Below, piece after piece: positions 5,211 to 22,253 of a stretch of 22,292 nucleotides of DNA. The DNA is from a virus. Under the pieces are notes generated by a model. It searched no databases, was not told the DNA's origin, and saw only the letters and a list, made by a program, of their open reading frames with translations. The DNA lies in IMG/VR virus record IMGVR_UViG_3300025062_000006, positions 1 to 22,292 of that record; one strand, written 5' to 3'. A program made the translations under genes and the position numbers. Numbering within the stretch: position 1 is the first letter of the stretch; each line of letters opens with the position of its first letter.

Positions 5211-5945
5211 ATGGCAGAGAACTTAAATCAATCCCACGCCTTTATCGGCAAGGGTAAAATCTTTATGACACCCATTACGGGTGCAGTACGTGGCAAGCCT
5301 TTTTGGGTTGGCGTTGCGTCTGCATTATCTTTTGCTCACTCAGTCGAAGATGAGAAAGAATTAATTGAGCACCATTCTGGCACCAACCAAGTTTGGGATG
5401 TGTCAGCCGGTACGAAAAAGACTACGGTATCTTTGACTATCCAAGAGCGCCGCTTAGAGGCAATGCGCGCAGCACTACAAGCAACCGTTGAAACCGTAGC
5501 GACTGGCTCCGTGGTAGCAGAAGAACACGCCGTCGATGCAGTTGGTGATATTGCTTTTTTAAAGCATTCAAATGTTACTGTGACTACTGTTACGGATAGC
5601 GCTGACGGCCCATTGTCTGAGGGTACTGACTATAAAATCGACAAGCAGTATGGCCGCATTGAGATATTAAAAGCGGGCTTAACAGGTATCAAAGTCGGCT
5701 ATACCTACGGCGAAGCAACTGTCATGAAGCCAATGACCGATAACGTGGATTTCTACGAGCTACGCATTGACGGTATGAATACGGTCGGCCAAAAAGATAA
5801 ACAGATTGTCACAGCTTATCGCGTCAAGCTTAACCCGTCTGATGCTTACGATCTAATCAATGACGACTTTGCAGAAATGCAGATTGAGGGCACAGCGTTA
5901 TTTGATGAAGCACGTAATGCCGCTTATGAGATTAAAACGATTTAG
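5211..5945 (+). CDS. Major tail tube protein
   Basis: A 244-aa beta-rich protein with AGAGGA upstream and a terminator just after, typical of the very highly expressed tail tube gene. It shows strands characteristic of tail tube proteins: GKGKIFMTP near the start, a Lys/Thr-rich hairpin TKKTTVSLTIQERRLEAMRAAL, and a C-terminal DFYELRIDGMN / QIVTAYRVKLNP / EMQIEGTALFDEA set. A central insert (approx. 118-170) reads as an extra small domain with YKIDKQYGRIEIL and GLTGIKVGYTYGEA, resembling the bead-like modules placed on some tail tubes. It assembles in rings around the tape measure. Good call; no single diagnostic motif. Confidence 0.8.
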   Translation: MAENLNQSHAFIGKGKIFMTPITGAVRGKPFWVGVASALSFAHSVEDEKELIEHHSGTNQVWDVSAGTKKTTVSLTIQERRLEAMRAALQATVETVATGSVVAEEHAVDAVGDIAFLKHSNVTVTTVTDSADGPLSEGTDYKIDKQYGRIEILKAGLTGIKVGYTYGEATVMKPMTDNVDFYELRIDGMNTVGQKDKQIVTAYRVKLNPSDAYDLINDDFAEMQIEGTALFDEARNAAYEIKTI

Positions 5946-5960
5946 TGATTATTTCTAATT

Positions 5961-5980
5961 CCCTCGAATTCGGGGGTTTT
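5961..5980 (+). terminator. Intrinsic terminator after the tail tube gene
   Basis: Stem CCCTCG (5961-5966) with CGGGGG (5971-5976), one T-G pair, AATT loop, then TTTT; a second T run follows at 5984-5989. Confidence 0.7.
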
Positions 5981-6042
5981 AGATTTTTTGTTTAATCAAG
6001 TCATTACGCTGTGATGATTTGCTCAAATAAAAAGAGGTGATT

Positions 6043-6474
6043 ATGCGTACTAATGCACAAACTAAACTGACAAACACTGTCACAAACGCTGTCATCGTCT
6101 TATCTGATAGCTTATATCCTGATGCTGAGCATGATTGGTCATCAGTAGTATCAAATACCAAGTACGCGCTAGACGGCACGATGATAGTTGAGCAGTCAGT
6201 AAGGCAAGCTGGCAGACCATACGTGATGCAAGCGCCTGATGGTCATGGCGTACTATCACGAGCAACGGTTAATGCGCTCAAATCTGAGCGTGACAAGTTG
6301 GGCGCTACCTTTTGGTTGGATTATCTAGCAGATGGAGCGGTAAAGCGCGTAAAAGTGATATTTGACACGACGCAAGAGGCCATCAATGCTACGCCAATCA
6401 AAGGCTCGACAAGTCCAGAACTGACCGATTATTACAATGTGTCGCTTAAGTTTTTAGAGATACCGAACGTGTAA
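6043..6474 (+). CDS. Small conserved-looking tail protein, 143 aa
   Basis: Follows the tail tube gene after a 97-base gap that holds a terminator. The middle contains SVRQAGRPYVMQAPDGHGV and RATVNALKSERDKLGATFWL, then GAVKRVKVIFD. The R-P-(hydrophobic)-x-L/M, 'switch to helix', 'strand' pattern is one I associate with small tail proteins near the tube and baseplate genes of siphoviruses, but I cannot name the family. AGAGG is five bases before ATG 6043; the in-frame GTG at 6037 lies within that ribosome site and is less likely. No signal or membrane segment. A promoter for the next cassette lies at its very end. Confidence 0.7.
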   Translation: MRTNAQTKLTNTVTNAVIVLSDSLYPDAEHDWSSVVSNTKYALDGTMIVEQSVRQAGRPYVMQAPDGHGVLSRATVNALKSERDKLGATFWLDYLADGAVKRVKVIFDTTQEAINATPIKGSTSPELTDYYNVSLKFLEIPNV

Positions 6475-6475
6475 A

Positions 6476-6484
6476 TGGTATAAT
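6476..6484 (+). promoter_or_regulatory. Extended -10 promoter of inserted cassette 1
   Basis: TGGTATAAT (6476-6484) is a perfect extended -10 (TGn plus TATAAT), directly after the stop codon of the 6043 gene and 27 bases before ATG 6511. No good -35 is seen at 17 bases; an extended -10 does not need one. Predicted start of transcription is near 6491. A host sigma-70 promoter inside a late tail operon suggests expression during lysogeny. Confidence 0.65.
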
Positions 6485-6510
6485 TAAGCATACTTTTGAT
6501 GGGGTGTGTT

Positions 6511-6726
6511 ATGAGTGATGATAAAATAATTACCATAAATGACATAGATAAGTTGCGTGACGAGCGCGATAGTATTTTTCGCAAAATGGAAGCGTCAACA
6601 AACACATCAGAGCGCAATTCGTTAAAATGGGCTTGGCACATAAAGCAAGCGCAGTTAAGGCTATGTACCGATAAAATCAGCTCTTTGCCTAGCAGCGAGT
6701 TTGGAGTCGACGATGAGCGATATTAA
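6511..6726 (+). CDS. Cassette 1 hypothetical protein, 71 aa
   Basis: First gene of a short cassette inserted between tail genes. The product is soluble, charged and mostly helical (INDIDKLRDERDSIFRKME, then SLKWAWHIKQAQLRL), so a small helical hairpin is likely. No family recognised. Start chosen at ATG 6511, with GGGGTG (6501-6506) five bases upstream; in-frame ATG 6499 and TTG 6496 lack a ribosome site. It is read from the extended -10 promoter at 6476 and overlaps the second cassette gene by 14 bases, so the two are probably coupled. Likely a lysogeny-expressed accessory gene (moron); function unknown. Confidence 0.65.
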   Translation: MSDDKIITINDIDKLRDERDSIFRKMEASTNTSERNSLKWAWHIKQAQLRLCTDKISSLPSSEFGVDDERY

Positions 6727-6916
6727 TCACTTTCAATTAGTAGAGGGTGATGTTGATAGCTTGACTTGCCCTAGCTGTTCATCAAAGCTTAAATTAAATA
6801 GCACGTATATCCGCATCTTGAATGACAACGGTTCTTTGCGAATACCTTGTTTTGTGTGCGAGACACCGTTAAAAATATCATATATATTAAAAAAACTTCA
6901 TATTAGACTTGAATAA
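6713..6916 (+). CDS. Cassette 1 zinc-ribbon protein, 67 aa
   Basis: A small protein with two C-x2-C knuckles, CPSC at residues 19-22 and CFVC at 46-49, 24 residues apart: a classic four-Cys zinc ribbon. The C-terminus ISYILKKLHIRLE is basic and hydrophobic. ATG 6713 is used because GGAG (6703-6706) lies six bases before it. The sequence is very AT-rich (16 of 60 bases are G or C at 6841-6900 by hand count), unlike the flanking tail genes, which points to separate origin. With its neighbour it forms a promoter-to-terminator cassette. Small zinc ribbons in phages often bind nucleic acid or a host enzyme, but no target can be named. Confidence 0.65.
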   Translation: MSDINHFQLVEGDVDSLTCPSCSSKLKLNSTYIRILNDNGSLRIPCFVCETPLKISYILKKLHIRLE

Positions 6917-6938
6917 AACCTAATTAGCAAAACCACAG

Positions 6939-6961
6939 CCCACTCAATGAGTGGGTTTTTT
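6939..6961 (+). terminator. Intrinsic terminator closing cassette 1
   Basis: Perfect 7-bp stem CCCACTC / GAGTGGG (6939-6945, 6949-6955) with AAT loop, followed by six T. It ends the promoter-gene-gene unit and leads straight into the recurring joint sequence at 6964-6992. Confidence 0.85.
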
Positions 6962-6963
6962 AA

Positions 6964-6992
6964 TGCCTACAATTTGACGGATGATAACAATG
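6964..6992 (+). repeat. Module-border leader sequence, copy 1
   Basis: Two bases after a terminator T run comes TGCCTACA (identical to 893-900), then AATTTGA and a variant ribosome site before ATG 6990. It parallels the leaders at 16811-16836 and 20398-20418. Confidence 0.5.
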
Positions 6993-9900
6993 GCGATTAC
7001 TCAAAACGATTTAGAGATACTAAAGTCCGAGATTATGGCTGATACGCCTGATGGCGGCGGATTGCCTACAGGTATTGCTGTCATTGATGGGGTATCAAAT
7101 AACTTATTTCCTGATGTGTCGGATATTGACCGCCTTATCGGTCGTGTGCGCCTGCGTAAGGTATCACTGGCAGTCAAGACGGCTAATGCGGAATTGCTGC
7201 AAGCGGTGCGGATGCTGTTTACTGAATTGCCTGAAAACCCGAATATTAGCGTTTTTGCGTTTAAAGCCAGCAGCTTTGCGGATAGACGAGTGGATGCTCA
7301 GAACAAGATTGAGAGCTACTTAGCTTTTGGCTCAAAGTGGGCAGGGCACTTGCTTGAAACCCAATTAACAGGTCAGCGGGTTATCCAAGTGTCGCTTGAT
7401 AAAGGCGATCAGATACCAGCAGTCGGACAGCCACTTGTAATTGTGCAAAACGAGGGTCAAAGCGACGAGTTTTATCAGTATATTCGTCCGCTTAAGGTTG
7501 ACACAATCGAGCGCCGTTTTCAACGAACTGTTAGCGAGACAGTGACACGTATAGTCGCAACGATTGAGTTTGGCGACACGCTGACAAAGACTTTTAACGG
7601 ATTAACCGTACCTGAGTTTTATCAAAACGCTAGTACCAGCCGCCGCGCAATATTACGTGAGGCTCGCGTTGCTGATGCTGCTAAGTATTACAGCGCCAGT
7701 CGCTTAGCTGAGCCAGTAGTGGCAATGACAAGTCGTCAAGTGCGCTTAAATTCAATCTACACGCAAGTTGTGCCAAGCACACAAGTAGAAACGCCGATAT
7801 TACAGCGTGACCCAGCCAATCAGGTTGCTACTCAGGCGCGTGGTGATGGTGTGATTGCTATCAATCAGTCGGTCAATGTTGCGACTAATACAGCGTTTAG
7901 TCTGCCGTCAGGTATTGCAGTCGGTACGCTGAGTATTGCGGTAGGTGGTCGATCGCTAACTGATAGAGATGGTCAGTTAGTCGATAGCACTGGATTGGCT
8001 TATGCGTCTATCAAATATGGCGTTGGTCAAATCACATGGTATAGCGTCTTAAATCTTGGGCAAACAACGGTAACAGGTAGCTATAAACCTGCGAGTGAGT
8101 TTACCCGCGTGGCACAAACTGATTATCAAATCGTTGGTGACAACGCAGGTTATAACTATGTTCGCGAGCTGGGCGCTGAGCCGGTGCCTAACAGCCTTAA
8201 AATCACTTATACGGTAGATGGTAATAACTATCTCGTACACGATGATGGACGCGGCAATCTGATTGATGATGACGGCAACGGACGCGGTACAGTACAAGGC
8301 AAGACTGTATTGCTTACGACTGCTGCCATACCTGATGCTGCCAGCTATATTATTTACTCTTTTGGCGTGGATTTAGATACGGTTAAGTATGGCGCTCAAG
8401 CATTATTGCCAGCTTATCACTCGGCAATTCTTACTGATAAAGTGGTTGGCAATATAACTATTACATGGGCAACCGGCAAAACAGCGACTATGACTAATGG
8501 CATTATCACTGGTGATGCAACAGGCACGTTTGATGCCAATGAATTACGCATAGCGCCTAAAGAGACGGTCGCCAAAGATACTGTATTTACGGTGACTTAT
8601 AACAAAGTGCTGGATTCGATGACTACAGCAATCAATGCCAATTATTCACCGCAAAATGCCAACGGTGTTTTCGTCGGCAGTATTGATCTTGCAAGCGCTA
8701 TTGAGGGTTTGGATTTCCAAGTAATTCTTAGCGATAAGCAGAAACCACAAGTCATGATTAGTTTTGGCATCGCTGAAAACAATACCAGTTTGTTTGTTAA
8801 GACTGTTTTTTATCCAAGCTATCAAAGTGTGCAGTCGTACAGTGGTAACGCTATTATGACGGACGTAAATATATCATGGATGCCATACGCAAGCGGCTCG
8901 GCTGACGATTGGCAGCCAACGCTAGTAAGTAGCAGTGTAAACAAAGCAACGGGTAAGGTTAATTTTTCTGTCAAAGTGGCGCGTAAAAAAATAATTACTG
9001 ATGTGGTTATGGTTGGCGGTATCAATAAAAGCCCTATCTTTTCCACGAATGCCGTTAACGAACTTTTATTTATCGAGACAGCAAGAGTTAAAGGCATTGC
9101 AACACTTGGTAGTACGACCGAATCAGCGACAGTAGGTATAAAGGCTGATAAGTTTCTTGTAGCGCCACCACAAGCGTCAGACACGCCAGTGGTTAATGGC
9201 TCAGTATTTATTGATGTACTCGGACAGAGCTTGCGTGATGATAATGGCAATGTCAAAAACGGTTCATCTGTAGTTGGTACTATTGATATTAAATCAGGAG
9301 TTATAGCGTTAACAACATGGGCTGCAGGGGTTGCAAATACAGCTAGCCTTAAATCAATGTTGCGCGAAAACGACCCAGTGCCACTTGCTAATATTATTTT
9401 TAGAACACCAGTTGCGCCGCTTAAAAAAGCCTCATTACAAATCAGTGCTGAGCTTGCAGACGGTACGATATTGTCGTTATCGACTGATGCACAAGGCGGC
9501 ATTACTGGTAGTAAGTACGCTCATGGTACGGTTGATTTTAAAGCGGGTGTTGTTGCGCTGTATTTTTACGAAAAACTGGGAGTAACAGCGAATCCTAGCA
9601 TCGTGAATGAATCATGGTATGACGCGGCAAATATTTATATGGACGGGGGCACAAACTATATCAATAAACCGATTTACGTTAAACCTGACAGCATCCGTTA
9701 TAACGCGATTGCTTACAGCTACTTGCCGCTTGATAAAGAGCTTATCGGTCTTGATCCGGTGCGCTTGCCGACTGATGGTCGTGTGCCATTTGTTCGCAAA
9801 GGTGACAGCATAGCGATTACTGAGCTTAAAACAATGGCGCTACCGACCAATGCACCTAATGACACGTTTGATTTAGGCTTTGAGCGTTTGTCAGATGTGA

Positions 9901-10613
9901 ATGTCGTTGATAGTACAGGTAAAAAAGTGAGCTTTGATTACCTTGATATTGACTTAGACGCTGGTACATTAAAGCTTAACGGTATGTTTGATATATCGCT
10001 ATACACAGCTCCGTTGACAGCCAAATACCGCATTATGGATATTGCGCTAGTCATTGAGACTGATATATCAGGGCGTGTAACGCTATCAACAGTTATTACG
10101 CACAATTACACCACAGCAGCGGTCTTTAGCTCGATGCTATTAGCAGGTGATATGCAAGCACGAGCGTTTAATGTTTTTGGTCAAAAATCATGGGGTGGCG
10201 TTTGGAGCGATAGCTTAGTCGGTGATTCTACAACCGCGCAGCTACAAGTTACTAACAATCCTATCGTGGTGACTAATCGCGATGCCATTACTGAAAGCTG
10301 GGCGCTAGTATTTACCAGTCAAACGGCATTCAACATTATCGGTCGGACAGTCGGTCAAATTGGCTCAGGGTCGACAACTACGCTAACAGCACCTATTAAT
10401 CCGATGACTGGCTATCCTTATTTTACGATACCGGTTGCTGCTTGGGGGCTTGGTTGGTCAGCTAACAACGTGGTTAGACTCAATACCGATGCGCCTAAAT
10501 ATCCGATATGGATAGGCAATGCGATACAGCAACATCAAGGTAGCAGTAGCGATAATTATGATTTCACTATTGGCTATCATGCCAACATCGATAGAGAGCG
10601 AGGTGCGCCATGA
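6990..10613 (+). CDS. Very large tail-tip/fibre structural protein, 1207 aa
   Basis: The largest protein in the window. The N-terminal ~230 residues look like a globular region (PTGIAVIDGVSNNLFPDVSD; RRFQRTVSETVTRIVATIEF). The centre is beta-rich and modular: related segments of the form D-x-x-G ... hG(T)h(D)-x-x-(S/T)G-x-hxL occur near 7960-8040, 8240-8325, 8470-8540, 9205-9320 and 9455-9565. The C-terminal ~200 residues read as another beta domain. No signal peptide or cysteine pattern. Its position, size and modular beta build suggest a tail fibre or baseplate-associated structural protein; I do not recognise a named family. ATG 6990 was preferred to ATG 6981, because the latter overlaps the only ribosome-like site and 6990 matches the leader layout of the tape measure gene. 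ATGA overlap with the next gene. Confidence 0.75.
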   Translation: MAITQNDLEILKSEIMADTPDGGGLPTGIAVIDGVSNNLFPDVSDIDRLIGRVRLRKVSLAVKTANAELLQAVRMLFTELPENPNISVFAFKASSFADRRVDAQNKIESYLAFGSKWAGHLLETQLTGQRVIQVSLDKGDQIPAVGQPLVIVQNEGQSDEFYQYIRPLKVDTIERRFQRTVSETVTRIVATIEFGDTLTKTFNGLTVPEFYQNASTSRRAILREARVADAAKYYSASRLAEPVVAMTSRQVRLNSIYTQVVPSTQVETPILQRDPANQVATQARGDGVIAINQSVNVATNTAFSLPSGIAVGTLSIAVGGRSLTDRDGQLVDSTGLAYASIKYGVGQITWYSVLNLGQTTVTGSYKPASEFTRVAQTDYQIVGDNAGYNYVRELGAEPVPNSLKITYTVDGNNYLVHDDGRGNLIDDDGNGRGTVQGKTVLLTTAAIPDAASYIIYSFGVDLDTVKYGAQALLPAYHSAILTDKVVGNITITWATGKTATMTNGIITGDATGTFDANELRIAPKETVAKDTVFTVTYNKVLDSMTTAINANYSPQNANGVFVGSIDLASAIEGLDFQVILSDKQKPQVMISFGIAENNTSLFVKTVFYPSYQSVQSYSGNAIMTDVNISWMPYASGSADDWQPTLVSSSVNKATGKVNFSVKVARKKIITDVVMVGGINKSPIFSTNAVNELLFIETARVKGIATLGSTTESATVGIKADKFLVAPPQASDTPVVNGSVFIDVLGQSLRDDNGNVKNGSSVVGTIDIKSGVIALTTWAAGVANTASLKSMLRENDPVPLANIIFRTPVAPLKKASLQISAELADGTILSLSTDAQGGITGSKYAHGTVDFKAGVVALYFYEKLGVTANPSIVNESWYDAANIYMDGGTNYINKPIYVKPDSIRYNAIAYSYLPLDKELIGLDPVRLPTDGRVPFVRKGDSIAITELKTMALPTNAPNDTFDLGFERLSDVNVVDSTGKKVSFDYLDIDLDAGTLKLNGMFDISLYTAPLTAKYRIMDIALVIETDISGRVTLSTVITHNYTTAAVFSSMLLAGDMQARAFNVFGQKSWGGVWSDSLVGDSTTAQLQVTNNPIVVTNRDAITESWALVFTSQTAFNIIGRTVGQIGSGSTTTLTAPINPMTGYPYFTIPVAAWGLGWSANNVVRLNTDAPKYPIWIGNAIQQHQGSSSDNYDFTIGYHANIDRERGAP

Positions 10614-10954
10614 TATTGAGTATTGATGCTAAAAACGCAGCCTTGCAAGGCATTGCCGATAGATTAAACGTCGGTACTAATTCGGTATTGTCGCTCTATG
10701 TTGGCGCAACTCTGGCGGCTGAGTTTGCGCTGACCAATCCCGTAGAGGCATCTATTGCTAACGCTGTAATGCTGTTTAAGATGCCGCCTAGAGTTTTGGC
10801 GGTATCATCAGGAGTGTTAACAGGCGCTAAAATATTAGATGCAAGCGGTGTGCTCATTGCTACGCTAGACGTGGCAACAGAGATTACGCTTGATAAATCG
10901 CAAGTCTATCAGGGTGGTTATGTGAGCATAACATCACTACAAATAGGTATCTGA
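10610..10954 (+). CDS. Small beta-rich tail protein, 114 aa
   Basis: Starts in the ATGA overlap with the 1207-aa gene, so the two are coupled and probably act together. Sequence is rich in short strands: NSVLSLYVGATLAAEFAL, PRVLAVSSGVLTG, AKILDASGVLIATLDV, and a final YQGGYVSITSLQI. It could be a small jelly-roll or Ig-like fold. No catalytic or binding motif, no signal sequence. Position among tail-tip genes is the only clue to its role; no family recognised. Confidence 0.65.
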   Translation: MILSIDAKNAALQGIADRLNVGTNSVLSLYVGATLAAEFALTNPVEASIANAVMLFKMPPRVLAVSSGVLTGAKILDASGVLIATLDVATEITLDKSQVYQGGYVSITSLQIGI

Positions 10955-10955
10955 T

Positions 10956-11180
10956 ATGGCGGTTATTAATGGCAGGGTAAAACGCTATGACGGCACCGCT
11001 ATTGATTATGTTTTGATATTCAAATGGAGAGATGGCAAGTGCTTGGGTAAATCAACACCTGATAAAGCTGGGAATTGGTCGTTTGAGTACGATGCTAATA
11101 TGATAGTCGGCGTCACTTATGTTGCTGATGGTTGTGAGCCGCTATCACATGGACCATATGAATTTGTACTTAATAAATAG
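10956..11180 (+). CDS. Small transthyretin/Ig-like tail protein, 74 aa
   Basis: The whole protein is one short beta unit: INGRVKRYDGTAIDYVLIF, WRDGKCLGKSTPDKAGNWSF and TYVADGCEPLSHGPYEFVL. The G-x-V ... G-x-x-h-x-x-V ... D-x-x-G-x-(W/Y)-x-F pattern is that of carboxypeptidase regulatory-like (transthyretin-type) beta sandwiches, which occur as add-on domains of phage tail proteins. The two Cys residues (29 and 58 by rough count) may simply be structural. Two bases from the previous gene; TAGGT serves as weak ribosome site. Assigned to the tail tip by context. Confidence 0.65.
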   Translation: MAVINGRVKRYDGTAIDYVLIFKWRDGKCLGKSTPDKAGNWSFEYDANMIVGVTYVADGCEPLSHGPYEFVLNK

Positions 11181-11188
11181 GATGAATT

Positions 11189-12079
11189 ATGAGTATATTA
11201 ACTCCGGTTAAAGTACCAGTAAAGATTTATAGATGGGACGATGTAGGCGCTCCCGTATTTAACAAAACGACAGATGTTATTGCGAAACTTTTTAAAGCCT
11301 GTCTTGTTACCGGTTACGGTGCAAAACAAGGCGCAGGATGGACAATGCCGTTTGAAGTTAGCGGCATCAAAGTATTTCGTCCCGAGGTATGTGCTGAGCC
11401 TGATTTTTACTTGCGATGTTCCGGAAATACAACAACGCAGATGACAGCGCAAGTTTATATCAATATGACAGACGCAAGCACAGGTGTTTTAAAGCTACAA
11501 TGTAGTGATCCTTTTAAATTTGCGCGGGGTATTATATCCGGCAAGTGGATATTAATTGCCTCATCACGCGCTTTTTGGTTTTTTTGCGAGCAAGCTGAGG
11601 TTGCCTCAACTCCCCAGCAAACAACTGGATCGTATTTTTTTGCAGGCGATGTATATAGTCAAAATAATACAAACGTGTATATGCAACATACAGCAGGCGA
11701 TAACTATGCTGCATATAGCTCGTTACTACGCACGTATTTATACAATAACACCCCGTCGACAGATAAAACTGTTTACAGTCCGGGTAAACTACTCCAAAGC
11801 GATAACAGTGTTATTACAGTTGATGTAACATCAATCACAAACTGGGACGGTACAAATAAAGCATTAAATAAGTTTGTGTTGGCTCCGCTTGTTGTTAATA
11901 GCGCTAACGATATGTTTGTGCTGCCTGGCATTTTTACTAGCGCAGATGGCGTGACAAAACAAAATTTTGATGAGGTCAGTATTGCGAGTAGCGTTGCGCT
12001 AACAAACACAGTTGTTTTTGGTACTGGCAGCACGATGCCTAGCAACTTTTATATTAGTACAGATTATTGGGTGCGCTAA
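11189..12079 (+). CDS. Tail-tip structural protein, 296 aa
   Basis: A 296-aa beta-rich protein with AGGATG upstream. It opens VKVPVKIYRWDDVGAP and contains TGYGAKQGAGWTMPFE, a pattern I associate with phage structural proteins encoded beside small Ig-like tail genes. The middle (CEQAEVASTPQQTTGSYFFAG) and the Asn/Thr/Ser-rich second half (YNNTPSTDKTVYSPGK; FVLAPLVVNSANDMFVLPG) read like a receptor-binding or decoration domain. AT content is a little higher than in its neighbours. No transmembrane part. Stop overlaps the next start (TAATG). Structural role is inferred from context; no family name is claimed. Confidence 0.65.
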   Translation: MSILTPVKVPVKIYRWDDVGAPVFNKTTDVIAKLFKACLVTGYGAKQGAGWTMPFEVSGIKVFRPEVCAEPDFYLRCSGNTTTQMTAQVYINMTDASTGVLKLQCSDPFKFARGIISGKWILIASSRAFWFFCEQAEVASTPQQTTGSYFFAGDVYSQNNTNVYMQHTAGDNYAAYSSLLRTYLYNNTPSTDKTVYSPGKLLQSDNSVITVDVTSITNWDGTNKALNKFVLAPLVVNSANDMFVLPGIFTSADGVTKQNFDEVSIASSVALTNTVVFGTGSTMPSNFYISTDYWVR

Positions 12080-12396
12080 TGATTATTGACTTATATTATC
12101 AAGCATACGGCACAGGTTATATTGCAGGTACTAATGATGGAATTGTTACGGTGAGGGGCAGCCCAGCATCACGCAAGATATGGTTACTTGATGCACAAAC
12201 ACTTACTATCGTTAAAGTTGTGACGTCGCTACCAAATGGTCATTATTTGTTTTTAGGGCTAAATCCTGATCAAGAATATTTGGTCATGGTGCGCGACTAC
12301 AAGCGTGAGCTTGAGCCGTTTGCATGGGATTACGTTAAACCTGTAAACGATATAACACTCGATGCACAGCAAGCATTATGGGCATCATGGCAATAA
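12079..12396 (+). CDS. Small Ig/carboxypeptidase-like tail protein, 105 aa
   Basis: Begins on the last base of the previous stop codon (TAATG). The in-frame GTG at 12067 would lie within the previous gene and is not needed. Layout: GTVxVxG-type strand (DGIVTVRGSPASRKIWLLD), LTIVKVVTSLPNGHYLFLGL and EYLVMVRDYKRELEPFAWDY. This is the pattern of a short beta-sandwich with the 'G-x-Y-x-F-x-x-L' turn of carboxypeptidase regulatory-like domains, as seen in 10956-11180. Probably a tail-tip component acting with the neighbouring genes; no named family. Confidence 0.65.
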   Translation: MIIDLYYQAYGTGYIAGTNDGIVTVRGSPASRKIWLLDAQTLTIVKVVTSLPNGHYLFLGLNPDQEYLVMVRDYKRELEPFAWDYVKPVNDITLDAQQALWASWQ

Positions 12397-12409
12397 ATTG
12401 AGGTGATAA

Positions 12410-14653
12410 ATGGCAAGCCCACCTGCTAATACAGAAACAATTATTTATATCACGTCAGAAAGCTTGCCGTTACCGTTGTCAGTACCAACAAGTGAGCAAC
12501 CGCTATCTAGCGCGCTACCGCTGAGTATGTCGCGTAATTTGCGAACAGTTGATGGTGGAGATATAGAGCCACCTAATGATGATGTAAGTGTAGCCATTAG
12601 TGCAATGGCTGTTATCGCGCCTACAGCGTCCGCAAGCGCAACGGCTGATTTTATCGAGGTCGGCGTAACAGTCACTGCATATTGCGATCTAAACGCCACT
12701 GCAAGCATGGTCGCAAGTTATGACGCTAATGTATTTAGAGGCATCATAGGTGATGTATCGGGCAGTATTCAGCAATCAAAACTACAAGGTGTTAGTGGGC
12801 AAGGAAAATTTGAGAGCAATAAAAAGCTAAATAACAATATCGGCACTAACTGGCAGCAATCAAGGTTGGTCGGTACTGACAATCACGCTCAGTTTGAGTC
12901 TAACGAAAACTTAGTATCAGGCAATCAGTTATTGTTTGAGCAATCAAAACTTATTGGTACGAGTAATCAGCAAAGCGCCGAGTATCAGACGTTTATCGCC
13001 CAGCGCAAGCGGTTTGATTACGAGCAAGCAAAGTTAGTCGGTCAAGGTCAGTGGTACGGCTTTGAAGCAATGACTAAACGTCAAATTGAGCGAGCGATAC
13101 AGGGTGAAAATAGTAAATTATTAACAGATAAGCTAAGCTCATACAACGAGTACGGCTACCTGTTAAATACTCGCACTGACTTTTTAATCGAAGCTGCAAG
13201 ACTACCATTTTCAAAGCTCAGGTATGTTGCGCCTAACTTATCACAGACAGTCATACTTAAACAGCAAATCATAGACGGCTGGGAATGTGGCTCAGGTGAT
13301 TTAAGGCACTATGTTTATAGTGACGAGTTACCACTACTGATGACAAGACGTATTGCGGGTAGAGGTTTGTCCAGTAACATACCTCTACCAATGACGATGC
13401 CTCGCAGCACATTGGTGCTATCAGCTGTTGAGGTTGAGGCACTACCTAACAGACCATGCAAGCGCAAGACATTGGGCGTTAATCCTACGCTTGATATAAC
13501 AATGTGCGAGCCTAGAGTATTTGGCAAGTCATCAAGCATGGCAGTAAATGCAATCGGTACGCTAAACGCTATCGCATGGCTAACATTAATCGCTGGTGAA
13601 AAAGACAGCGCCCGCGGTCAAGGAGTTATATTTGTGACAAACAGTGTGTCATTAGTGCGCTCCGATAATGGGCGTGAGATTAAAATGCTAGGCTTTAGCG
13701 TGGGCATTGATAGCAATAGCTATACGTGGTCATTTAGTGCCACTGTGCCACTCTCAGAGCTATCAAAAGTCGATACAGCACATGAGCAGCGAATAGGCGT
13801 AGACTTTGAGTGCAACGGCAATCTATGGCGATTTATCTTAGATGATTGCAGTGACAGCGTGTCGTTTGGTGAAAGCTCGCTAACGATTAAAGGTAAGTCA
13901 CGCGCCATGCTACTCGCGCACCCATACGCTACTCAAAGAGGCTTTAAGTTTGACACAGCTATGAGCGCAAGACAGATTGCTGATGCGGAATTAAACCGTA
14001 ATGGCGTAGCGTCAGGCTTTACATTGGATTGGCAGCTCGCAGGGGTTAACGGTTGGAATGTACCAGCCAACACTTATAGCTATACAGGCAAAACGCCTAT
14101 CAATAGCTTGCAATGGATAGCCGAGGCAGCCGGTGGCTTTATCAATGCGGACATGAGTGCTGATATTTTGCACGTATTGGCACACTATCCTATCCCATCG
14201 TGGGAATGGGCAGCGCAAACGCCTAGCATTAACTTGCCAATGTCACTTATTACCAGTCGCAGCCGTGGCCGTGTCAATAAACCGGCATACAACGGCGTGA
14301 CTATCTACGGTGAGCATGACACTAGCTTTGGTGGATTAATCAAGCGCAGAGGCACAAGCGGAGGTTATCAACCGCCAATGGTCACAAGCGACTTAATGAC
14401 AGATCAGGATGCGGCTATTAGTCGTGGCAAGATGATACTTAGTGATACAGGTGATATTGGTAACATCGGTATCTCAATGCCATTGGTCGCTGATATTGGC
14501 GTGCTAAAGCCGTCTACACTTATCGGTATAAATGATGGTGAGCAATGGGTTGGCATGGTCAGAGGCACAACTATCACAGGTCGTCTATCGAGCAATCGAG
14601 CGTTAGAGATTGACCAGTCTATTGATGTTGAGCGTCATTTTGATAAGGGGTAG
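12410..14653 (+). CDS. Tail hub / baseplate-like protein with 28-residue repeats, 747 aa
   Basis: GAGGTGA precedes the ATG. Three parts are visible. Residues 1-~110 are Ser/Pro/Ala-rich with many small residues. Residues 121-~275 hold an exact 28-residue repeat (two 14-residue halves): see the separate entry. The C-terminal ~400 residues have hub-like traits: VGIDSNSYTWSFSATVPLS, DFECNGNLWRFILDDCSD, SLTIKGKSRAMLLAHPYA, then an AEAAGGFINADMSADILHVL segment resembling the hub domain in which a 'tail protein D / gp27-like' hub module contacts the tail tube, and a long beta part at the end. It lies between small tip proteins and a small beta-rich protein. Baseplate hub role is inferred from this layout; lysozyme or peptidase motifs are not seen. 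Confidence 0.65.
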   Translation: MASPPANTETIIYITSESLPLPLSVPTSEQPLSSALPLSMSRNLRTVDGGDIEPPNDDVSVAISAMAVIAPTASASATADFIEVGVTVTAYCDLNATASMVASYDANVFRGIIGDVSGSIQQSKLQGVSGQGKFESNKKLNNNIGTNWQQSRLVGTDNHAQFESNENLVSGNQLLFEQSKLIGTSNQQSAEYQTFIAQRKRFDYEQAKLVGQGQWYGFEAMTKRQIERAIQGENSKLLTDKLSSYNEYGYLLNTRTDFLIEAARLPFSKLRYVAPNLSQTVILKQQIIDGWECGSGDLRHYVYSDELPLLMTRRIAGRGLSSNIPLPMTMPRSTLVLSAVEVEALPNRPCKRKTLGVNPTLDITMCEPRVFGKSSSMAVNAIGTLNAIAWLTLIAGEKDSARGQGVIFVTNSVSLVRSDNGREIKMLGFSVGIDSNSYTWSFSATVPLSELSKVDTAHEQRIGVDFECNGNLWRFILDDCSDSVSFGESSLTIKGKSRAMLLAHPYATQRGFKFDTAMSARQIADAELNRNGVASGFTLDWQLAGVNGWNVPANTYSYTGKTPINSLQWIAEAAGGFINADMSADILHVLAHYPIPSWEWAAQTPSINLPMSLITSRSRGRVNKPAYNGVTIYGEHDTSFGGLIKRRGTSGGYQPPMVTSDLMTDQDAAISRGKMILSDTGDIGNIGISMPLVADIGVLKPSTLIGINDGEQWVGMVRGTTITGRLSSNRALEIDQSIDVERHFDKG
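12770..13234 (+). repeat. 28-residue protein repeat (six units) in the hub-like protein
   Basis: Units begin at residues 121 (QQSKLQG), 149 (QQSRLVG), 177 (EQSKLIG), 205 (EQAKLVG), 233 (ENSKLLT) and 261 (EAARLPF), each exactly 28 residues after the last. Halfway (residues 135, 163, 191, 219, 247) is always Glu, usually after an aromatic. The true period is therefore 14 residues. DNA identity between units is modest, so this is an old, constrained repeat. Confidence 0.8.
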
Positions 14654-14657
14654 TATT

Positions 14658-14921
14658 ATGAATTTTATAGAAGCATTAAGTTTGGTTGAGAAAGGTGAGT
14701 GGGTAGGTCGTCAAGCGTGGGGTGAAGGTCGTTATTTATTTATGGGTAATGATGATGGTGAGTTTAACATCAACCCCACAGGAAATAAGGTGCTGACTTG
14801 TCGCGTAGCTCATGCCGATTACTTTTACTTATCACGAAGCACAGACGCGCAAACGCAGGATTTGCAAGATGATTTGTTTGCAAAAGACTGGGTATCCTTT
14901 GGTGTAAATAAAGAGGGTTAA
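14658..14921 (+). CDS. DUF2829 / Tad2-like protein (possible anti-Thoeris factor)
   Basis: An 87-aa protein with the outline of the DUF2829/Tad2 family: N-terminal MNFIEALSLVEKGEWVGR (Phe3, Ala6-Leu7, Gly13, Val16, Arg18), Trp21 and Gly24 in the turn, hydrophobic YLF strand, and the C-terminal D-D-L-F-A-K-D-W block (71-78), the most conserved part. In that family, Tad2 sequesters the signalling molecule made by Thoeris TIR proteins and so blocks this defence. Length is normal for single-domain members. Start is ATG 14658 (GGGG at 14647-14650); upstream in-frame codons lie inside the previous gene. It has no promoter of its own and is read with tail genes. Family membership is likely; anti-defence action is inferred. 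Confidence 0.65.
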   Translation: MNFIEALSLVEKGEWVGRQAWGEGRYLFMGNDDGEFNINPTGNKVLTCRVAHADYFYLSRSTDAQTQDLQDDLFAKDWVSFGVNKEG

Positions 14922-14923
14922 TT

Positions 14924-15157
14924 ATGGCTAGCGGCAACCTATGGCAGCTATTCAAAAACGTGACAGAGCAAGGCGCTAAGCAGTTAGCGACTGTCATTGA
15001 TAGACAAGGCTCAAACTATACCGTCACCATGCAAGGTGGCGGTAATACGATTGTGCAATCAAATGCGGCTTACGAGCTGCAATCAAAAGTCTTTATTCGT
15101 GATGGGCAGATTGTAGCGCAAGCACCTAATTTAACTTATGTAGAGATTGACGTATGA
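14924..15157 (+). CDS. Small beta-barrel tail protein, 77 aa
   Basis: Two bases after the previous stop, with GAGGG overlapping that stop. Residues 15-35 (QGAKQLATVIDRQGSNYTVT) start a beta hairpin, then the motif M-Q-G-G-G-N-T-I-V-Q, KVFIRDGQIVAQAPNLTYVEI. The G-G-G turn and 'vfvrdGqi-x-APnLp' ending are typical of small OB-like tail proteins that sit beside the hub in siphoviruses. No cysteines. It overlaps the chaperone start by ATGA. Structural role by context. Confidence 0.6.
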   Translation: MASGNLWQLFKNVTEQGAKQLATVIDRQGSNYTVTMQGGGNTIVQSNAAYELQSKVFIRDGQIVAQAPNLTYVEIDV

Positions 15158-15588
15158 CAGACATTAAAAAAGACGATAGCGTTAAAACTATCAAGGTAGC
15201 AGGGCAAGAGATTGCGATCAATCGCGTCAAGGTTAAAAACTTGCATGAAGTGACGCGAGCATTTACGCCATTTGTCGCTGAGTTTGAGCGCATTGTGAAA
15301 GCCAAAAAAGGTATGCCAGAGAGTGAGCTAATGGCGCTTATCGGTACGTTTACAGATGAAACAGTCATCTTAGCCTCGACACTGACAGACCAGCCGCCGA
15401 GCTTTTATAGAGAGCTTGAGCCATTAGAGATGCTGCAAGTAATGCAGGAGGTCGTCGCCCATAGTGGCGATTTTTTTATGCGTCAGATTTTCATGCCCCT
15501 AAAGCAGTTGGGGGCGCAACTGGCGTTACTTGGTACGACAGCTTATTACCATTCTACAAAATCGGAATCAGAGAATCCGACATCTTAG
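15154..15588 (+). CDS. Tail assembly chaperone, lambda gpG-like
   Basis: A 144-aa protein encoded upstream of the tape measure gene, as lambda G is. It opens with a beta segment (SVKTIKVAGQEIAINRVKVKN), then helices: HEVTRAFTPFVAEFERIVK, SELMALIGTFTDETVILASTL, and LEMLQVMQEVVAHSGDFF. The 'L-x-x-V-x-x-N/S-x-D-F-F' end of the last helix is typical of the family. In lambda, gpG and the frameshifted gpGT bind tape measure protein and recruit tail tube subunits, and are absent from the virion. The second part is in the -1 frame directly downstream (15477-15725). Start overlaps the previous stop by ATGA. The last ~20 residues of this frame are polar and look disposable. Confidence 0.8.
   Translation: MTDIKKDDSVKTIKVAGQEIAINRVKVKNLHEVTRAFTPFVAEFERIVKAKKGMPESELMALIGTFTDETVILASTLTDQPPSFYRELEPLEMLQVMQEVVAHSGDFFMRQIFMPLKQLGAQLALLGTTAYYHSTKSESENPTS
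15471..15477 (+). promoter_or_regulatory. Putative -1 frameshift site (T TTT TTT)
   Basis: Seven T span codons 106-108 (GAT TTT TTT) of the chaperone gene, giving a canonical X-XXY-YYZ heptamer. The -1 frame is closed by TAG at 15462-15464, immediately upstream, and open from 15465 to the TAG at 15723. Shifting back by one joins the two frames. A less canonical alternative is the G run at 15510-15514. Confidence 0.6.
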
Positions 15589-15725
15589 ATATGATCTTTG
15601 GTGAATGGTGGGGTTTATCTAAAGCACTGGCTAAAGATAAGCAGCAGGAAGTTAAGAATATGGCAATCGCTGTACGTATGGCGCAAGCTGATGCTAAATC
15701 GTGGAAAGAGTTTATGAAGGGCTAG
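15477..15725 (+). CDS. -1 frame extension of the tail chaperone (lambda gpT-like part)
   Basis: This frame has no ribosome site of its own, yet is open for 86 codons and reads like a real protein: a variable linker, VTWYDSLLPFYKIGIRESDI, LDMIFGEWWGLSKALAKDKQ, then a helix NMAIAVRMAQADAKSWKEFM. Frameshifting at 15471-15477 would give a 190-aa fusion (108 codons in frame 0, then 82 in -1), comparable to lambda gpGT. Phage tail chaperones are often split this way. ATG 15591 could start a 44-aa piece but lacks a ribosome site. The gene sits where gpT should be, apart from the inserted cassette 2 before the tape measure. Confidence 0.7.
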   Translation, partial: YASDFHAPKAVGGATGVTWYDSLLPFYKIGIRESDILDMIFGEWWGLSKALAKDKQQEVKNMAIAVRMAQADAKSWKEFMKG

Positions 15726-15759
15726 CGCAACAATGGTTAATCGGTTAAAGTTGTTAGAT

Positions 15760-15765
15760 TATAAT
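15760..15765 (+). promoter_or_regulatory. -10 box of inserted cassette 2 promoter
   Basis: Perfect TATAAT at 15760-15765, 35 bases after the chaperone stop. A 17-base spacing puts TTAATC (15737-15742) at -35, a weak match. Transcription would begin near 15772, leaving a leader of about 11 bases before ATG 15783, with only GAG as a possible ribosome site. Confidence 0.55.
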
Positions 15766-15782
15766 TTTGTTGAGTATTAGCA

Positions 15783-16358
15783 ATGAAAAAGCTATTAGCT
15801 GTTGGTATGGCATTGGTGCTAAGTGGTTGTGGTGAATTTGATAGTTTGCCGCCAAAGGTAGATAACGGCAATGGCGGGACAATTGGTCCTGGTAGTACAT
15901 TTCCTACAGATAAGGGCAATTGGAAGTATGGCAATACAAGTAATGAAAACGGCCTGTTTTCATTAACCGCTAGAATAGATGCTATTAATACATATACGGT
16001 TCCAAAATATCCAAATCTTGAGCGGAGATCATGGATCGAGTTAGAAAAAAGGAAGTTATTTGATAGCAACATATCAAAAAGATTTCTGGTTTTTGCACCT
16101 GAAGAAGTTAAGTGTACGCCAAGTTGCGACATAAGAATTAAGTTTAATGGAAATACAACTACTTATAGCTTTTTGCAGAGTAGTGAAGGCGTGTTAACTC
16201 CAGCAAGTGATCGGATAGCAGCTGAGCTGTTTGACAAAACCACGCAATCCAATAGAGCTACTATTTATCTGCCTATTATGGGTTTAAGCAAAGAGTTTGG
16301 GTCTGAGTTTAATCTTAGAGGCTATGATTCGGCTAAAATGAAATTTATAAGCGAGTAA
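15783..16358 (+). CDS. Cassette 2 lipoprotein, 191 aa
   Basis: The N-terminus MKKLLAVGMALVLSGC is a clear lipoprotein signal: two Lys, a hydrophobic stretch and the lipobox L-S-G-C with Cys16 as the lipidated residue. A Gly/Asn/Pro-rich linker follows (VDNGNGGTIGPG), then a ~150-residue domain with a possible disulphide pair in VKCTPSCDIRI. Residue 17 is Gly, not Asp, so outer-membrane sorting is likely in a gammaproteobacterium. The gene is AT-rich (20 of 60 G or C at 16021-16080 versus 33 of 60 at 17041-17100 by hand count) and follows its own -10 box. Membrane lipoproteins expressed from prophages sometimes exclude other phages or alter the cell surface; no specific function can be assigned. 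Weak ribosome site. Confidence 0.7.
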   Translation: MKKLLAVGMALVLSGCGEFDSLPPKVDNGNGGTIGPGSTFPTDKGNWKYGNTSNENGLFSLTARIDAINTYTVPKYPNLERRSWIELEKRKLFDSNISKRFLVFAPEEVKCTPSCDIRIKFNGNTTTYSFLQSSEGVLTPASDRIAAELFDKTTQSNRATIYLPIMGLSKEFGSEFNLRGYDSAKMKFISE

Positions 16359-16765
16359 TGATATTGGATAAGATAAATAAAGAGATAGTAATTGCGCTTA
16401 TAGTGGCAGCAGGATTGTTTTGGGGTTTAATTTTTTACCTAAATAACAGCACTATGTCGCCTGAAGGCCTTGATGCCATGATGGAGCGACAGGCTGATTA
16501 TGAAAAAAGAGAAAGCGAAAAGCCTAAAAAAACCAACAGTAGCACCAAGTTGATCACCGACTGTCAAATCAGATTGAAGTCAACGCTACGCAACCCTAGT
16601 TCTTTAGAGCTTAAGTTTTCATCAAATCAAGCTACAAACACAAGTGATGGCACAAGGGTATCTTTTCCTTACTCTGCTGAAAACGGTTTTGGTGGTATGG
16701 CAGCAGGACATGCTGTTTGTGTTTATGACACCAGCGGGAATGTGATAAGTACGCAATTTAATTGA
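16358..16765 (+). CDS. Cassette 2 membrane-anchored periplasmic protein, 135 aa
   Basis: Overlaps the lipoprotein stop codon (TAATG), so the two are probably made together. One membrane segment near the N-terminus (IVIALIVAAGLFWGLIFYL, ~10-28) is followed by a charged linker (YEKRESEKPKK) and a periplasmic domain with a Cys pair (DCQIRLKSTLRNPSSLEL and AVCVYDTSGNVISTQF). The motif 'C-x6-L-x-x-P-x-S-h ... h-x-Y-x-A-x-N-x-F-G-G ... C' is one I associate with small secreted domains of bacteria and phages; function unknown. Paired with the lipoprotein it may form an envelope complex. Terminator follows within 20 bases. Confidence 0.65.
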   Translation: MILDKINKEIVIALIVAAGLFWGLIFYLNNSTMSPEGLDAMMERQADYEKRESEKPKKTNSSTKLITDCQIRLKSTLRNPSSLELKFSSNQATNTSDGTRVSFPYSAENGFGGMAAGHAVCVYDTSGNVISTQFN

Positions 16766-16784
16766 TAACGAATAGTTCAAACAA

Positions 16785-16809
16785 GTCACCTTAGTTGGTG
16801 GCTTTTTTT
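16785..16809 (+). terminator. Intrinsic terminator closing cassette 2
   Basis: Stem GTCACC / GGTGGC (16785-16790, 16797-16802; one T-G pair), six-base loop, seven T. It closes the cassette 25 bases before the tape measure start. Confidence 0.8.
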
Positions 16810-16810
16810 A

Positions 16811-16836
16811 TGCCCAAAATTTGAGGTGAGACAATG
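16811..16836 (+). repeat. Module-border leader sequence, copy 2
   Basis: TGCCCA directly after the terminator T run, then AATTTGAGGTGAGACAATG (16818-16836), which gives the ribosome site and start of the tape measure gene. It matches 20400-20418 at 18 of 19 bases. Confidence 0.65.
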
Positions 16837-19800
16837 GCAGGTGATTTAGATTTTAGCGTACAGTTGCGGCTATTGAATGATCAGTTCAATAATGGCATCA
16901 ATGAGGCGCGTGATAAATTCACGGCATATGCGCAATCAATACAGCGCAATCTTGCGCAAATGGGCACCGATACCGAACGAGCGGAAACGCTATTAACAGG
17001 TCTTGGCAACGTAAGCTCAGACAGACTGACCGCTGAGATACGGGCAACAGCTGACCAACTCAGGCAGATGGGTGCTGGTGCTAACTTATCAGGTGAGCAA
17101 GTTGAAGCCGCAATGCAAGCATCTGCTTTGCAGGTGACGCGCTTAGGTCGTCAATTAGAAGTCGCTAGAGCGGAGGCGGTGCGATTAAGTCAAACAGGCG
17201 CATCACCTCAAGATTTAGAGCAAGCAGCGCAAAATGTTAACCGCTTAGAAACTGAATTAAACGAAGCGCGCAGTGCCAGTGTTAGTCTCGCTAATGAGTT
17301 GTCAGGTGCAATGAATCGCGCATCTAATACGGCAGATGGTGCGCGTAATGCCATTTATCGAATAACAAACATTCGAGTACCTGAAACCATACGCGGTGAG
17401 ATTGACCAAATCAGCAGATCATTGGTAGATTTTCAGCGCAACAGTGGTCGTCCTGCAGAAGAGATAGACCGGGTAACAAGGGCTGCTGAGGAGCAAATCA
17501 GAAGACTGAGAGCGGAATTAAACGGACTTGATGAAACGCAAGATAGGGTTAATCAAGGGTCAAACCGTTTTGCAGGCGGTATAAATGGTGTGCGTTCAGC
17601 CTTTGGTAGTTTGCAAGGTATGTTGGCGGCAGCAGGTCTTGGTATCGGTGTCGCTGAGATTATCGAAGTGTCAGACGCATTTAAAACGCTTGAGGCTCGT
17701 ATCAAGTTAGCCACAGGCGAGGGCGCTAGCTTTGTATCGGGGTTTGAAGGCGTTAAGAATATTGCTAATGAGACATTCTCCAGTATCGAAAATACAGGCG
17801 AGCTATTTGCCCGTATCTCACAAGCTGCTGAAACTCTAGGACTTGCACAAGCTGAGACATTGAGTGTCACCCGTACTATTAACGAGGCAATCAAATTATC
17901 AGGTGGTAGTGCTGCCAGTGCTGATGCCGCAATTACTCAGTTAATTCAGGGCTTGCAATCAGGTGTAGTGCGTGGCGAAGAATTTAACTCCATCATGGAA
18001 CAAGCACCGCGATTGGCTAAGGCTATGGCTGATGGTTTGGGCGTAACGCGTGGTGAATTACGAGCAATGGCACAAGATGGCGCGTTAACGTCAGAAGTAG
18101 TAATTAATGCATTACGTTCTCAGAGTGACGCTATCGCTCAAGAGTTTGGCACGCTGCCAACTACGGTCGGCAATGCGGTTCAGGTCGTAAAAAATCAGTT
18201 ATTCAACTTTATCGGAGAGATGGACAAAACAGTTAATCAGTCATCAATACTCGCTAATGCTATTACAGCGGTTGGTGATAGCTTAGAAAATCTTGATCCT
18301 AGAACCGTTGCAGCACTTGACCAAACATTTAACCAGCTTATAGAGACAGTCAGTATCTTTTGGCGCCGAATAAGTGACACTTATGCTGATATTAATAATC
18401 TTATTAATTCGATAGCTGGCGGTGCTACAGATGCAAATGAGCAAGTCGGACTAATTACAGCTTCATTAAGTGGTGTCAGTATTTCTATCGGCGCTATCAA
18501 TGACGGCTTAAAATCTATAGAAATAATAGGTCGCGTCATTGAGAGTGTTTTAGCGACGTGGGCGGCGATGGCAGCAAGGTTTGTGTCATACCTAACTTTT
18601 GGAGAAGCTAGACAGGCACTACAAGGTATCGCAGCGGACTTGGATGAGTACGCTGTCAAAGCAATGGGCAAGGCTGACCAAGCAGCACAAGATTTCTCAT
18701 CATCGTTTGAAGCGGCCATGCTTGAGGCGGGTAAGTCTGCTGCTACTCATTTGGGTGATGCAGCGAAAGCAGCAACCGATACCTATGACCAAATGAAGGC
18801 AAGCGGTACAGCGTCAGCGGAGGCAGTTGCAGGCGCATTTACTAAAATGGCAAATGCTCAAATCGCAGCGTATGGCGGGGCAGCGTTAAGCGCGTTGCAA
18901 GCCGAGGGTGCTGAGCGCGGGCTAAAAATTGCTATTGATGAAACTGGTAAAGCTATCATCGATAAAATGAGCACAGAGGAACAGTCATCCGCAGCAGCGC
19001 AGCAAAATGCAAAGGCGCTTGACAAGAGTTATCGAGAACTTGCCGACTCTTTAAGCGTGGGTATTACAAAGGGTTATGCTGATGCTAAGGCATCGGTACT
19101 AGAACTATCCAAGAGCTTTGACGTACTGACAGACTCAGGCTATCAGACGGGCGATGTACTGCAAGCCGCTTTACTCAAGATGACCACACAAGCAAAAAAT
19201 ACAGATGAAGTGCGTGACGTTATCACAATGTGGGAAGAGCTGGGTGAACAAGGGCAGCTTACGGGCGAAGATTTGGCGGCAGGTCTTGACTTAGCTAATG
19301 AGCGATTAGACGCACTGACAGATGGTGTGAATAGCGTCAACGAAGCCTATAAGGTTTTAGGTTTAACTACTCGGAAAGAGGCGGCATTGCAAGCCGAGGC
19401 TTATACTCAGGCATACGGCATCATCGTTAAAGACGGCGAAGCGACAACCGGTCAACTTGCCGAGGGTTTTAAAAAGTATGCAAAAGCAGCCGTTGCCGCC
19501 AATGGGGATGTAGTCACAGCACAGTTAAAAGCTGAGGCGGCTCAACGTGGTCTGGCAGTCGCAGTTGATGAGACAGGTCGTGTCACTTTTAAATCGATGA
19601 GCGATACAAAAGAGGCAAACGACAAGGTAACGCGTTCAGTCACTAATATTCGCACAGCCTACGACGGCATATCATCAAGTGCTGGTAATGCTGGTAACGC
19701 CATGGTACGCGCTGCAAACGAGGCATCATCTGCTTACGATAAACTGCAACAGAAAATCAAAGCGGTCAAAGAGGCTCAAGAGTTGAAAAGTGGTGATGAA

Positions 19801-20343
19801 ACACTTAAAAACTTACGAGTTTACGGCACTGAAAAAGCGCCAGCGGAAGGCAATCAGTTTGGATCAAAAACAGGCGTTGAAAACTTTTTAAAATCGGCTG
19901 GACTGAGTGCAGAGCGAGCAGCCGAGGAAGCTCGTAAACTATACGTAAAATCAGGTAAGGATAGCGGCGCTCTTAACTTTGGCGATTTGCAAGGAGTTCA
20001 AGCAGGAGCGGTTATGACTCCTGCAATGCTAGCTAATTTTAAAACAGCATCAATGTATCTACTTGAAGTTGCAGAAAAAGCAAAAGTCGACGAAGCGAGA
20101 CGCAGTAAGTATGAAGCCAGTCTTAACCGGTTGCCCGATTCAGCATTGCAAGCTGTTAGTAATCTAAATAAGCAACCTAACTTTTTTGACACGGGTAACA
20201 ACAATATTAGCAGTAAGAGTTATAACGTCAAGTTTACACTTGGCGGTATAACAGCAAATGCAAGTGTGCCAGAGTCTCAAGCAAGTATGTTTGAGCGCAT
20301 GATGCAAGAATTACAAGACAGTAAAGCAATAGCAGGTTACTAG
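16834..20343 (+). CDS. Tape measure protein, 1169 aa
   Basis: The long tail-length ruler. Residues ~1-250 are helical coiled coil (many A/E/Q/R). Residues ~275-465 are the classic tape-measure domain: EVSDAFKTLEARIKLATG, ISQAAETLGLAQAETL, QLIQGLQSGVVRGEEFNSI, MEQAPRLAKAMADGLGVTRG, LRAMAQDGALTSEVVINAL, ending QVVKNQLFNFIGEMD. Hydrophobic segments near ~530-590 fit the membrane-active region. A 64-residue segment is present twice, at 649-712 and 859-922. The C-terminal ~100 residues are a soluble domain (NVKFTLGGITANASVP). It fixes tail length (1169 aa suggests about 1.2 residues-to-1.5 A scale, roughly 175 nm) and passes into the host envelope at infection. Strong GAGGTGA ribosome site. Chaperones are encoded just upstream, split off by cassette 2. 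Confidence 0.92.
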   Translation: MAGDLDFSVQLRLLNDQFNNGINEARDKFTAYAQSIQRNLAQMGTDTERAETLLTGLGNVSSDRLTAEIRATADQLRQMGAGANLSGEQVEAAMQASALQVTRLGRQLEVARAEAVRLSQTGASPQDLEQAAQNVNRLETELNEARSASVSLANELSGAMNRASNTADGARNAIYRITNIRVPETIRGEIDQISRSLVDFQRNSGRPAEEIDRVTRAAEEQIRRLRAELNGLDETQDRVNQGSNRFAGGINGVRSAFGSLQGMLAAAGLGIGVAEIIEVSDAFKTLEARIKLATGEGASFVSGFEGVKNIANETFSSIENTGELFARISQAAETLGLAQAETLSVTRTINEAIKLSGGSAASADAAITQLIQGLQSGVVRGEEFNSIMEQAPRLAKAMADGLGVTRGELRAMAQDGALTSEVVINALRSQSDAIAQEFGTLPTTVGNAVQVVKNQLFNFIGEMDKTVNQSSILANAITAVGDSLENLDPRTVAALDQTFNQLIETVSIFWRRISDTYADINNLINSIAGGATDANEQVGLITASLSGVSISIGAINDGLKSIEIIGRVIESVLATWAAMAARFVSYLTFGEARQALQGIAADLDEYAVKAMGKADQAAQDFSSSFEAAMLEAGKSAATHLGDAAKAATDTYDQMKASGTASAEAVAGAFTKMANAQIAAYGGAALSALQAEGAERGLKIAIDETGKAIIDKMSTEEQSSAAAQQNAKALDKSYRELADSLSVGITKGYADAKASVLELSKSFDVLTDSGYQTGDVLQAALLKMTTQAKNTDEVRDVITMWEELGEQGQLTGEDLAAGLDLANERLDALTDGVNSVNEAYKVLGLTTRKEAALQAEAYTQAYGIIVKDGEATTGQLAEGFKKYAKAAVAANGDVVTAQLKAEAAQRGLAVAVDETGRVTFKSMSDTKEANDKVTRSVTNIRTAYDGISSSAGNAGNAMVRAANEASSAYDKLQQKIKAVKEAQELKSGDETLKNLRVYGTEKAPAEGNQFGSKTGVENFLKSAGLSAERAAEEARKLYVKSGKDSGALNFGDLQGVQAGAVMTPAMLANFKTASMYLLEVAEKAKVDEARRSKYEASLNRLPDSALQAVSNLNKQPNFFDTGNNNISSKSYNVKFTLGGITANASVPESQASMFERMMQELQDSKAIAGY

Positions 20344-22166: not shown

Positions 22167-22253
22167 TGGTACCAGTGGTCGGACTCGAACCGACACGCTT
22201 TTAAAGGCAACGGATTTTGAATCCGTCATGTCTACCAATTCCATCACACTGGC
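22167..22253 (-). tRNA. tRNA-Leu (anticodon CAA)
   Basis: On the minus strand the 87-nt sequence folds as a class II tRNA: acceptor stem GCCAGTG / CACTGGT (G-U at the first pair), D-loop AATTGGTAGA, anticodon stem ACGGA / TCCGT with loop TTCAAAA giving CAA, a long variable arm (about 15 nt), T arm GTCGG-TTCGAGT-CCGAC, discriminator A and encoded CCA at 22167-22169. Variable arm and A73 mark tRNA-Leu. It reads UUG. The prophage ends beside its 3' side, a usual tyrosine-integrase target, so it probably marks the attachment site. Confidence 0.95.

Follow-up and report, generated by a model that had tools for sequence, protein, structure and literature searches.

The 22,292 nucleotides analysed here (positions 1 to 22,292 of the virus record IMGVR_UViG_3300025062_000006, hereafter the window) carry a tail assembly chaperone locus of a Psychrobacter phage that, judged from sequence comparison, very probably produces a short gpG-like and a long gpGT-like protein through a –1 ribosomal slip on a run of seven T (T7). 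The first-pass annotation had proposed a frameshifted pair of the gpG/gpGT type, joined at 15471-15477, and this proposal is now supported by matches to the families PHROG 1442 and PHROG 14432, by a T7 or T9 run in 23/23 homologues, by the onset of constraint at this run and by the existence of natural single-ORF fusions. The arrangement of the two frames is conserved, and selection acts on both of them from the T run onward.

In the –1 frame of the chaperone gene, a TAG at 15462-15464 is followed by 86 open codons up to a stop ending at 15725, and these coordinates were confirmed. The ORF has no start signal of its own, as its first ATG (15591) lies 40 codons downstream of its beginning and would give a product of 44 aa. 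The T7 run is in phase with frame 0 (GAT TTT TTT ATG, i.e., T_TTT_TTT), with 6 bases between the TAG and the run, and joining the two frames at this point gives a fusion of 190 aa, the size originally expected. The region in which both frames are coding is 115 nt long (Table 1).

Table 1. Position of the predicted elements of the chaperone locus in the window.
Feature	Position	Strand	Basis
Frame-0 gene, predicted tail assembly chaperone, short gpG-like product (144 aa)	15154..15588	+	PHROG 1442
Predicted gpGT-like frameshift fusion (190 aa), whole span	15154..15725	+	PHROG 14432 match in one stretch
SD-like AGGAGGT before the slip site, of doubtful role	15446..15452	+	18 nt before T7; kept in 22/23 homologues
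Terminator-like hairpin, possible stimulator or chance	15454..15471	+	Terminator-like scan match; –11.4 kcal/mol
TAG that ends the –1 frame before the slip site	15462..15464	+	Sequence
Predicted slip site T_TTT_TTT, in phase with frame 0	15471..15477	+	Homologue conservation; onset of synonymous constraint
–1 frame extension, gpT-like part (84 codons from the T run + stop)	15471..15725	+	PHROG 14432; dN/dS
Tape measure protein gene, expected partner of the chaperone	16834..20343	+	PHROG 12706, E = 1.9e-163; Pfam TMP_3, E = 7.8e-61

Comparison with the PHROG profiles assigned the frame-0 product to the 'tail assembly chaperone' family 1442 over residues 12-137 (E = 6.1e-13). The predicted fusion matched PHROG 14432 in one stretch, its residues 13-189 corresponding to positions 12-186 of 191 (E = 7.2e-15), and the –1 product alone matched the C-terminal third of the same family (E = 4.5e-11). 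Neither the frame-0 nor the –1 part matched Pfam or NCBIfam above the cut-off, the similarity of the frame-0 product to Pfam TAC_15 lying under the cut-off of that family. The structure model of the short form was too uncertain for use (pLDDT 58.6); a viral fold search carried out with this low-confidence model returned several tail chaperones, including a 'pre-tape measure frameshift protein G', with TM-scores <0.5, and a search of the PDB with the same model found nothing.

The frame-0 gene was searched in viral contigs, phage records and bacterial genomes, and the removal of duplicates left 23 distinct sequences, one of which is distant (L075). All the named matches are Psychrobacter phages or Psychrobacter genomes, and the –1 part was found in the same contigs as the frame-0 gene. 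The two-frame layout and the in-phase run are kept in all 23 sequences, as T7 in 21 and as T9 in two (L030 and the distant L075). The collecting script demanded GA followed by 7-9 T, but all the loci examined earlier without that filter had the site, so that the count is not a product of the filter. In five homologues (L021, L025, L030, L033, and L084) the T run directly adjoins a –1-frame TGA, and therefore their –1 frame can be entered only at or after the run. Neither chaperone family was matched in eight distant phages (of Pseudomonas, Shewanella, Vibrio, and others) reached via the neighbouring tail genes.

Synonymous variation in frame 0 was measured in the homologue alignment as the proportion of pairs with the same residue whose codons differ; as the homologues are related, these differences are not independent events, and the upstream part of the same sequences was used as control. 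The measure falls from 0.416 upstream to 0.011 in codons 0 to +7 from the T run and is 0.067 in codons 0 to +10, a value as low as the latter being reached in 0/70 upstream 11-codon windows and in 0/100,000 random 10-codon draws. The drop coincides exactly with the T run, the codons immediately before it being still variable. In the region coding only in the –1 frame, dN/dS is 0.10 in this frame vs 1.5 and 1.9 in the other two. Diversity at the second codon position of frame 0 is 0.089 in the overlap and 0.329 where only the –1 frame codes; frame 0 is thus also constrained in the overlap, which indicates that both products are kept by selection. A joint at the G run 15510-15514, tried as an alternative, is unlikely because synonymous sites of frame 0 are already constrained from codon 0 of the run on, and because the homologues conserve YASDFH, the –1-frame residues before the G run. 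By itself, an in-phase T7 is weak evidence, since the genes of the window hold 22 in-phase heptamers of the form XXXYYYZ in 6,524 positions, 2 of which are T7. The comparative data, namely the presence of the site in every homologue, the onset of constraint at the run and the low dN/dS of the –1 frame, together lie well beyond chance.

These data also bear on the reading that an indel in the T run has interrupted a single ORF, either through a sequencing error or in a decayed gene, which has a negligible probability. Homopolymers are error-prone and a single ORF is present in some relatives (see below), but the same layout occurs in 23 distinct sequences, which come from collections of phages, viral contigs and bacterial genomes, and frame 0 is still constrained after T7, as seen from its second-position diversity. 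Such dual-frame constraint already contradicts this reading.

Natural counterparts of the predicted fusion were obtained by searching a profile of the –1 part against 199 genomes of the host's family, which gave genomes with the domain within one open frame of about 190-230 codons (loci L076-L081); these may belong to Acinetobacter. Both of the two single-ORF proteins that were scanned matched PHROG 14432 along their entire length and, with the N-terminal half, PHROG 1442. Five single-ORF proteins can be aligned to the predicted fusion through the joint and are 36-39% identical to it over the 64 C-terminal residues. Near the junction the only candidate slip sites of these loci are AAA AAG, AAG AAA or AAA AAA, and the –1 frame stops soon after; slippage from the long frame might give them the short form.

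The same fusions are relevant to the possibility that the –1 ORF is a separate gene of 44 aa, starting at the conserved ATG 15591 and coupled to the frame-0 stop 2 bases before it. The ATG is indeed found at this position in all homologues, near the frame-0 stop in most of them, and the locus is annotated in this way in OQ059336.1, which lists the chaperone and a separate 43-aa 'hypothetical protein', in agreement with the earlier expectation that the fusion partner would be lost by usual gene calling. However, the Met encoded at 15591 has its counterpart in a Met of the natural fusions, in which no restart is required, and both the constraint on the –1 frame and the matched PHROG 14432 domain begin upstream of the ATG, the former well upstream. 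Moreover, the spacing between stop and ATG is not kept in L033 and L075, and no SD-like sequence was seen by eye at the usual distance before the ATG. An independent gene is therefore very improbable.

As for the mechanism by which the two frames are joined, a –1 slip on U_UUU_UUU is most likely and would be the simplest reading of the site. Low-level –1 frameshifting is widely conserved in the tail chaperone genes of long-tailed phages, and U_UUU_UUU is less shift-prone than A_AAA_AAG in E. coli (PMC5009743). This weak shift-proneness is one of the points against a ribosomal slip, the others being the distance of the SD-like sequence and the state of the downstream region, in which the search for a stimulatory structure found none that is conserved and gave a single-sequence fold with z = –1.05 and a homologue alignment fold without compensatory pair or covariation. 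The SD-like sequence is missing only from the distant L075, and its role in stimulation is doubtful because its spacing lies outside the 9-14 nt reported for upstream SD sequences that stimulate –1 frameshifting (PMC5009743).

A hairpin resembling an intrinsic terminator adjoins the T run and is more stable than expected (0/200 shuffles equally stable), and it could help an RNA polymerase to slip at the run. With one U added or two lost, part of the mRNAs would encode the fusion directly. The T9 of two homologues also fits polymerase slippage, which is known from bacterial enzymes on runs of this length (PMC5009743). Yet 21/23 homologues have T7 and not T9, and in the known case of hairpin-driven slippage, the Roseiflexus IS630 element, one base is removed and the opposite frame is reached (PMC5009743). 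Furthermore, the hairpin is suggestive in the window and L075, but it shows no covariation among homologues and is not kept in L021, L025, L030, and L084, where it is weak or no better than synonymous controls. Since the terminator-like hairpin is not kept in these four homologues, polymerase slippage is regarded as a rival of low probability.

With regard to the genomic context, the chaperone gene precedes the tape measure gene in the same orientation, with two unrelated genes between them (window 15726-16833), one for a putative lipoprotein and one for a protein of PHROG 32961. The major tail protein gene (5211-5945, PHROG 807) is located about 9 kb upstream and does not adjoin the chaperone. 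Pairs of the gpG/gpGT type usually adjoin the major tail protein gene, even if this order is not strictly defining, and both the distance of this gene and the two intervening genes count against the gpG/gpGT reading. The gene order as a whole is odd (5211-20343), the major tail protein gene being followed first by tail tip and tail protein genes and only then by those of the chaperone and the tape measure protein; in OQ059336.1, tail protein genes likewise precede the chaperone.

The stretch between chaperone and tape measure genes varies in gene content among relatives (window 15726-16833; L001 8570-10319; L075), including, among others, Arc-like and KilA-N genes in OQ059336.1, and accessory genes seem to be inserted here. 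A terminator-like hairpin followed by a T7 (16783-16810, + strand) immediately precedes the tape measure gene. Two places upstream of the chaperone, the gene 14610-14921 (+ strand) matches Pfam Tad2-like (Thoeris anti-defence 2-like domain) with 37.7 bits at a cut-off of 25, and its place is taken in OQ059336.1 by a 76-aa gene without PHROG match; a PADLOC scan found nothing. Near the right end of the window, a tRNA gene (22170-22253, – strand; Rfam RF00005, 55.4 bits) possibly marks host DNA or an attachment site.

From the arrangement described above we infer the ribosomal nature of the slip, its frequency and the ratio of the products, as well as the role in tail assembly. Most ribosomes would complete frame 0 and synthesize the 144-aa short form, and a minority would slip back one base on U_UUU_UUU and read the –1 frame to its stop, producing the 190-aa form, in which the last 36 residues of the short form would be exchanged for an extension of 82 residues. 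By analogy with lambda gpG/gpGT, both forms may bind the tape measure protein, and the extension may recruit the major tail protein.

These results correct the annotation of a gene family that is split or missed by gene callers, and PHROG 14432, listed as 'unknown function', likely represents tail chaperones in their long form. In addition, the contrast between the frameshifted copies of Psychrobacter phages and the single-ORF fusions of relatives amounts to a small natural experiment on the need for the short form.

The locus is well supported as a further example of the known class of tail-chaperone frameshifts. With lambda gpG/gpGT and the conserved –1 frameshift of long-tailed dsDNA phages it shares the position of the chaperone before the tape measure gene, and, as predicted here, a –1 slip towards the end of the gene, a short and a C-terminally extended form, and an extension without its own start. 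It differs from lambda in the T_TTT_TTT site, in the extent of the dual-coded overlap, in the failure to match Pfam or NCBIfam tail-chaperone families above cut-off, and in the position relative to the tape measure and major tail protein genes. The single-ORF fusions of PHROG 14432 consist of the same two halves and have a similar length (about 185-200 aa), but they are read in one open frame that needs no frameshift, with no separate short copy in the stretches fetched. The Psychrobacter phage vB_PmaS_Y8A (OQ059336.1), the closest relative with a name, has the same T7, with 97.9% identity in the chaperone and 90.6% in the –1 part, and differs in having the two halves annotated as separate, unrelated hypothetical proteins and other genes inserted before the tape measure gene.
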